Shown here piece after piece: positions 62,465-62,873 of a stretch of DNA of 64,000 nt (its first letter is position 1; each line of letters opens with the position of its first letter). The stretch comes from Anadara kagoshimensis. Lineage: Eukaryota; Mollusca; Bivalvia; Arcoida; Arcidae. The position numbers and the translations under genes are program-made. The notes beneath the pieces are model-generated. The model searched no databases and was not told where the DNA came from. It worked only from the letters and a program-made list of their open reading frames with translations. The stretch covers positions 25,709,928 through 25,773,927 of the forward strand of contig CM037865.1 in NCBI GenBank assembly GCA_021292105.1, in the 5' to 3' direction.

Positions 62465-62623
62465 CATTTCAAACAGTATACGGACAAGTTTTTCGGATTC
62501 TCCGTGGTACTTGGATGTCAGTGACGAGGAAGCAACATTAAAAAATGTTGTTCCGCACTCGGTGGCTACAGCCTTAGCCAGCAAGGTCTTTCCTGTTCCA
62601 GGAGGCCCAACCATCAGCACACC
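62465..62623 (-). CDS. KATNAL1: Katanin p60, Walker A exon, downstream copy (2b)
   Basis: The acceptor is CTGCTGCTAG and the donor ATG|GTATGT. Phase 0/0, exactly 53 codons. It starts [20 protein letters not shown] and ends [16 protein letters not shown]. All Walker A residues (GPPGTGKT) are present. Compared with 62715-62873 it differs at three positions: Leu for Met after the P-loop, His for Arg in the pore-loop KYxG, and Ile for Leu near the end. It joins in frame to 63598 upstream and 58342 downstream. There is no stop, frameshift or lost splice site, so it is a functional alternative exon, not a relic. Confidence 0.93.
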
Positions 62624-62714
62624 CTAGCAGCAGGAGAAGAAAACAAGGGCATGCAACTCCTTCCATTAGTATATTAACATATTTAAACATTAGATATATA
62701 TAACAATATCTTAC

Positions 62715-62873
62715 CATTTCAAAGAGAAGTCTGACTAACTTTTCGGATTCCCCCCTGTATTTGGAGGTTAAACTTGAGGAGGCAACATTAAAGAATGTGG
62801 TTCCACACTCGGTAGCGACAGCTTTCGCCAGCATAGTCTTTCCAGTTCCCGGAGGACCAACCATTAAGACGCC
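62715..62873 (-). CDS. KATNAL1: Katanin p60, Walker A exon, upstream copy (2a)
   Basis: The acceptor is CTTGTATACAG and the donor ATG|GTAAGA. Phase 0/0, 53 codons. It starts [20 protein letters not shown] and ends [16 protein letters not shown]. Pore loop 1 has the usual katanin Arg (KYRG). Only the Met after the P-loop is unusual, where the family has Leu. By my count 37 of 159 bases differ from copy 2b, mostly synonymous, and 50 of 53 residues agree: an old duplication held by selection. Keeping both copies would duplicate the P-loop in frame and should not fold as an AAA domain, so one-or-other use is expected. Confidence 0.93.

Follow-up and report, generated by a model that had tools for sequence, protein, structure and literature searches.

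Judged by its sequence, the minus-strand gene studied here is a katanin p60 of the KATNAL1 type. It runs from C9:25777254, past the end of the window (the whole 64,000-nt stretch of DNA that was analysed), down to window position 55352. The gene model was built from homology and splice signals. It has 11 exons in total, 10 of which would be present in each mRNA, and all introns are GT-AG. Whichever of exons A and B is used, the predicted katanin is 507 residues long. The features are given below in window positions, except for exons 1 to 4.

C9:25777254-25774561, minus strand: katanin exons 1 to 4, outside the window
63598..63703, minus strand: exon 5, 106 nt, ending in phase 0 at ...GIRRPWK, donor gtatta
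62715..62873, minus strand: exon A, 159 nt, Walker A to pore loop 1, with M14, R40 and L49
62624..62714, minus strand: A-B intron, 91 nt, the same letters in both genomic blocks
62465..62623, minus strand: exon B, 159 nt, Walker A to pore loop 1, with L14, H40 (KYHG) and I49
58216..58342, minus strand: exon 7, 127 nt, Walker B region, phase 0 acceptor
57389..57526, minus strand: katanin exon 8 (gene model)
56544..56670, minus strand: katanin exon 9 (gene model)
55352..55550, minus strand: exon 10 (gene model), last coding exon, ending ...MAEFGSV stop

In a Pfam search the 507-residue B form matched PF21126 (KATNA1_MIT, 9.1e-30), PF00004 (AAA, 5e-41), PF17862 (AAA lid, 1.3e-15) and PF09336 (Vps4_C, 4e-09). 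The order MIT, AAA, lid, Vps4_C is the full katanin p60 order and is shared with KATNAL1 and KATNA1 of other animals. A sequence search of the PDB returned KATNAL1 and KATNA1 (entries which we take to be human) as the top three of 252 matches (4.8e-147 to 1.9e-141), followed by VCP (1.4e-100) and later by MEI-1 (2e-83) among the best 60 of the 252. The gene differs from KATNAL1 and KATNA1 of other animals in its doubled P-loop exon: the top-ranked literature matches showed none there, and we know of none in those genes.

Other features of the window were noted in passing. A 147-bp tandem repeat (2.8 copies, 59796-60192) lies inside the 4.1-kb intron that follows exon B. A charged open frame is found on the plus strand at 36150-36695 (...AEKRRQAREKAEREAELERQRQEELE). 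A Pfam search with this frame gave no match; by eye we take it to resemble a MAP7/ensconsin-type region. If that resemblance is real, katanin would have a microtubule-associated gene as its neighbour, which would be curious.

Divergence between exons A and B

The original prediction described two adjoining 159-nt exons in phase 0 at both ends and with intact splice sites, and our recount agrees with it in sizes, phases, sites and base counts. The neighbours are also where they had been placed, the upstream exon ending at 63598 and the downstream exon lying at 58342-58216. Both exons have GT-AG sites: the acceptor and donor are ...tatacag and gtaaga for exon A, and ...ctgctag and gtatgt for exon B. 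Each exon encodes 53 residues, from Walker A through pore loop 1. The two exons differ at 37 of 159 bases (8 at first, 2 at second and 27 at third codon positions) and at 28 of 53 codons, 25 of them synonymously. As had been claimed, most of the base differences are silent (31/37 in synonymous codons) and 50 of the 53 residues agree, the three changes being M14L, R40H and L49I. The flanks of A and B have no leftover homology beyond that of shuffled sequences (83 and 37 of 200 shuffles were as good), and they therefore give no limits for the stretch that was duplicated.

Long-term purifying selection on both copies had also been proposed, with a dN/dS comparison as the check. By NG86, dN is 0.078 and dS is 2.08, a value near saturation which probably overstates the distance between A and B because only 15 of the 29 shared fourfold sites differ. 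Neutral divergence was simulated under a simple uniform-mutation model. With all 37 changes neutral, none of 20,000 runs gave three or fewer residue changes; with 18 changes neutral, the result was again 0/20,000. On this comparison, both A and B are under strong purifying selection, and the split between them is old as judged from the synonymous changes at the fourfold sites. Third-position GC is 0.47 in A and 0.45 in B, versus 0.17 to 0.33 in the other nine katanin exons. Gene conversion between A and B was considered on account of this high GC and was rejected as a recent event given the fourfold differences.

A second genomic block

A second copy of the katanin gene is found at C9:25.006 Mb, on the same chromosome and strand and 766 kb away. 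It also carries the A-intron-B arrangement, with flanking introns that differ from those of the first block. Between the blocks, exon A has one difference and exon B has two, all synonymous, and the 91-nt A-B intron has none. The identity of this intron is mildly unusual: among overlapping 91-nt windows in eight other introns (the E2 intron left out), 70 of 1,775 were free of differences. The overall inter-block intron rate of 8.2% is inflated, since the automatic alignment is poor in introns E2 and E9 and where E3 ends; the second-block translation made from it slips out of register at E3 and changes frame at E9. For the remaining introns, with the identical A-B intron left out, divergence between the blocks ranges from 1.7% to 8.5%. 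Katanin exon 3 (C9:25775620-25775416) encodes a glycine-rich linker repeat with a GGPSYGN-type unit and shows a 21-nt length difference between the blocks.

In the second block, one base is missing from katanin exon 9 (about C9:25000541; near 7543 in L016), which causes a frameshift. The missing base is outside any homopolymer run, so a homopolymer error is less likely. The lesion may be damage, a polymorphism or an assembly error. Since the second copy is possibly broken or misassembled, we count it as a supporting witness only. The probability that we give to alternative use is unchanged by the lesion because the main evidence is the comparison of A with B.

The katanin genes are part of a larger collinear block pair, C9:24.95-25.21 Mb versus C9:25.72-25.97 Mb (L016-L022, L189, L190, L194 and L195). 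L189 matches window positions 6297-17238 at 89.7-99.6% (seven pieces among the matches listed) and L190 matches 40275-49237 at 82.9-96.9% (six pieces among the matches listed). L016-L019 carry the match on from 49238; identity across the katanin gene is about 93-94%, with some lower stretches. A probe from 47100-47900 was found at two places in the genome, its own site and C9:24990889. When 24.70 Mb was compared with 25.46-25.48 Mb, a single 194-nt match (84%) was all that came up, which puts the probable start of the block somewhere from 24.70 to 24.95 Mb. At the other end, 25.21 and 25.96 Mb are still matching (94.9% over 2.1 kb). The simplest reading is that the two blocks are probably unpurged second haplotypes of the assembly; the second block may instead be a real segmental duplication. 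The A-B pair is present in both blocks and hence is no local assembly error.

Further apparent gene pairs, each within one contig and 0.15 to 3 Mb apart, in direct or inverted orientation, were observed on C1, C5, C14, C15, C16, C18 and C19; these too are probably unpurged second haplotypes. Four of them were compared; the pieces among the matches listed show 76.7-97.1% identity, and the largest piece of each pair 89-97%.

Splicing of the exon pair

Duplicated alternative exons are already known in bivalves, going by the available portions of PMC3912159 and PMC5589949. Katanin would be an unusual target for them. In PMC3912159, bivalve muscle myosin is described as having mutually exclusive exons for the P-loop (cluster 2) and for switch 1 (cluster 3). 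A myosin gene with tandem pairs at clusters 2 and 3 was found in the same genome (C5:18966542-18972839, L209) and was used as a control; its exons are known here from the gene alone and their exclusive use is taken from the available text of PMC3912159. Both cluster-2 exons carry P-loops and are separated by a 160-nt intron. The first is 112 nt long, and the second is also 112 nt if the length-matching donor is used. The cluster-3 exons are 93 nt each with a 398-nt intron between them, and differ at 22/93 bases and 3/31 residues. As far as these sequences tell, the cluster-3 pair is diverged to much the same degree as katanin A and B (37/159 and 3/53). The combination of clusters in this gene suggests that the DNA is probably from a bivalve. 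Myosin and katanin are alike in having tandem exons in one motor gene, with the P-loop in cluster 2 of the bivalve Mhc (PMC3912159, same portions). They differ in that myosin is not an AAA+ enzyme and in that its introns are 160 and 398 nt versus 91 nt in katanin. In scallop Mhc, the accessible text of PMC3912159 links the differences chiefly with loop 1 and the release of ADP, whereas the notable change in katanin is in the pore loop.

Exon 10 of oyster alternative oxidase is another doubled and alternatively used exon, with one copy the more conserved and the other bearing novel residues near functional sites (PMC5589949, in the part available to us). Unlike the katanin exons it is a terminal exon used via an alternative 3' splice site, and 15/41 residues differ in C. 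virginica. The same part of PMC5589949 places the exon-10 duplication in two oysters and reports it absent from four other molluscs.

No katanin with mutually exclusive or duplicated exons was found among the top-ranked literature matches. The original prediction had called the pair an undescribed device. This stands for katanin among those matches; as a wider statement it is weakened by bivalve muscle myosin, which already alternates P-loop exons according to the available text of PMC3912159. Searches for similar loci gave prokaryotic genomes and contigs of a viral collection, at ≤65% identity and with no mollusc among the matches listed (80 of 418 and 80 of 114 confirmed).

Mutually exclusive use of A and B is very likely from these comparisons. 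We consider it quite probable that the pair is an old tandem exon duplication in which both copies are functional, one per mRNA, giving two 507-residue katanins. Good support for the proposed selection on the two copies, and for their use as alternatives and not jointly, comes from the A/B divergence, from the second block (with the exon-9 caveat) and from the myosin control. In the proposed mechanism, an ancestral exon that began with the Walker A loop and reached pore loop 1 would have been duplicated in tandem, and each mRNA would take A or B and not both. Our leading guess is that direct A-to-B splicing would be hindered by the shortness of the intron (91 nt) and by a branch point lying about 49 nt from the A donor; trans factors would then choose between A and B.

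Inclusion of A and B together leaves the frame open for 560 residues; two P-loop segments would then stand in one AAA domain, as had been foreseen. When both exons are skipped, the Pfam AAA match starts at profile position 52/131 with the first 51 positions gone (C-terminal constructs). Neither the double-inclusion nor the double-skip product would be expected to sever. A frame shift would eliminate neither of them, and exclusion must therefore come from splicing itself. NMD enforcement was rejected: 159 is divisible by 3 and double inclusion keeps an open frame. Incompatibility of U2 and U12 sites was also rejected, as the donors (gtatta, gtaaga and gtatgt) and the acceptors look like U2-type GT-AG sites by eye.

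The A-B intron is short (91 nt versus 619-4122 nt for the other nine katanin introns). Its best match to the branch-point consensus is TACTAAT at 62665..62671 (minus strand), which predicts a branch-point A at +49. Other yTnAy matches are found at +25 and +41 from the A donor, and the AGs that lie after +6 and ahead of the acceptor have their ends at +55 and +58. A donor-branch-point limit of about 50 nt has been proposed for steric exclusion in a vertebrate study (PMC7969005, as given in the portion available). The case for steric exclusion in the A-B intron is marginal, with the predicted +49 barely below that limit. Invertebrates may splice across shorter donor-branch-point spacings. Tropomyosin is a further example of a sterically enforced exon pair. 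The OGDH exons 4a and 4b, the worked example in the available portion of PMC7969005, resemble the katanin exons in being doubled and, if the predicted branch point holds, in a donor-branch-point spacing under about 50 nt, which in OGDH enforces exclusion. They differ in that they are vertebrate exons with branch points mapped by experiment (+25 to +41 in human; PMC7969005, same portion), compared with a single predicted branch point at +49 in katanin. In the myosin cluster-2 intron, the yTnAy matches are 25 nt or less from the acceptor; even within one genome, then, the steric layout is no general rule.

It is quite conceivable, if not our first choice, that exclusivity is brought about by trans factors (e.g., Rbfox- or CELF-type) or by competing RNA structures and not by the short intron. 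The control myosin pair likewise has no close-set branch point. TGCATG is found in the A-B intron at 62650..62655 (minus strand) and GCATG at +32 downstream of B, and both are unchanged in the second block; we take them to be candidate sites of the Rbfox-type motif. However, over 94 kb of the same strand TGCATG occurs at 0.31/kb and GCATG at 0.73/kb, so single hits are weak evidence. RNA pairing was examined for the A-B intron against each of its neighbouring introns, and for the 150 nt that precede A against the 1,000 nt that follow B. In seven duplex tests for docking-type pairing, 4, 9, 66, 86, 87, 93 and 94 of 100 shuffles were as good, which speaks against the RNA-structure version of this explanation. 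An RNA docking-site model was therefore rejected, the duplex energies being not convincingly better than those of shuffles; with just two exons from a single species, the test is a weak one.

That a single copy is in use, most likely A, with B either a relic that is seldom spliced in or a minor form confined to some tissue and without distinct function, is unlikely. Exon A is closer to KATNAL1 6b5c (identical at 51/53 residues) than exon B (48/53), and B departs from the checked katanins at the pore-loop R. Yet B keeps 50/53 residues of A in spite of the 15/29 fourfold differences, an unused exon should have decayed according to the simulations (0/20,000), and the changes in B between the blocks are all synonymous (2/2).

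It is highly improbable that A and B are joined in one 560-residue protein that acts as a regulated inactive or dominant-negative katanin. Such a protein is permitted by the exon length (159 = 3 x 53) and by the intact state of every splice site, but one AAA fold should have no room for a second segment from P-loop to pore loop, and it would then be difficult to see why selection kept two P-loops and pore loops intact. The candidate branch point of the 91-nt intron, at the proposed steric limit, also stands against joint inclusion.

An assembly artefact, in which the second exon is absent from the animal, is scarcely credible even though several parts of the assembly seem to contain stretches in duplicate, for A and B differ by 23%, far above sequencing error, and A-intron-B occurs in two blocks with differing flanking introns.

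Pore loop 1 and the two predicted katanins

The three variable residues were aligned with KATNAL1 (6b5c) and KATNA1 (5zqm and 5zql). Exon A is KATNAL1-like at all three. At position 14, just after Walker A, KATNAL1 has M as in exon A and KATNA1 has L as in exon B. Pore loop 1 is KYRG in exon A and KYHG in exon B. Arginine is found at the equivalent of position 40 in KATNAL1 6b5c, in KATNA1 5zql and 5zqm, in MEI-1, and in an exon of the same genome (L010) that is presumably KATNAL2-like. The X-R-G motif of pore loop 1 is said to form a positive surface that recognises and remodels tubulin (PMC8369831, in the excerpt available). We read R40 as the R of this motif, in which case exon B would lose it through R40H.

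With a histidine in place of an arginine in each subunit, the B form would have a weaker or a pH-dependent hold on the acidic tubulin tail. Around neutral pH, the affinity of a histidine ring for acidic tails should be lower. The original prediction had raised the possibility of two severing enzymes from one gene. R40H, in what we read as the pore-loop X-R-G motif, gives that idea a concrete basis which had not been named before. We suggest tentatively that the two pores may differ by an arginine versus a histidine ring, that splicing may thereby tune the grip or severing strength, or the response to pH or glutamylation, and that this arrangement may be shared by many bivalves.

If true, this would be a splice-encoded reader switch for the tubulin code. 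The vertebrate katanin paralogues KATNA1 and KATNAL1 are separate genes. A KATNA1/KATNAL1-like split may arise here by splicing within one gene. Two isoforms only three residues apart, one of the three being the pore-loop arginine, would be a clean natural experiment on microtubule reading by severing enzymes.
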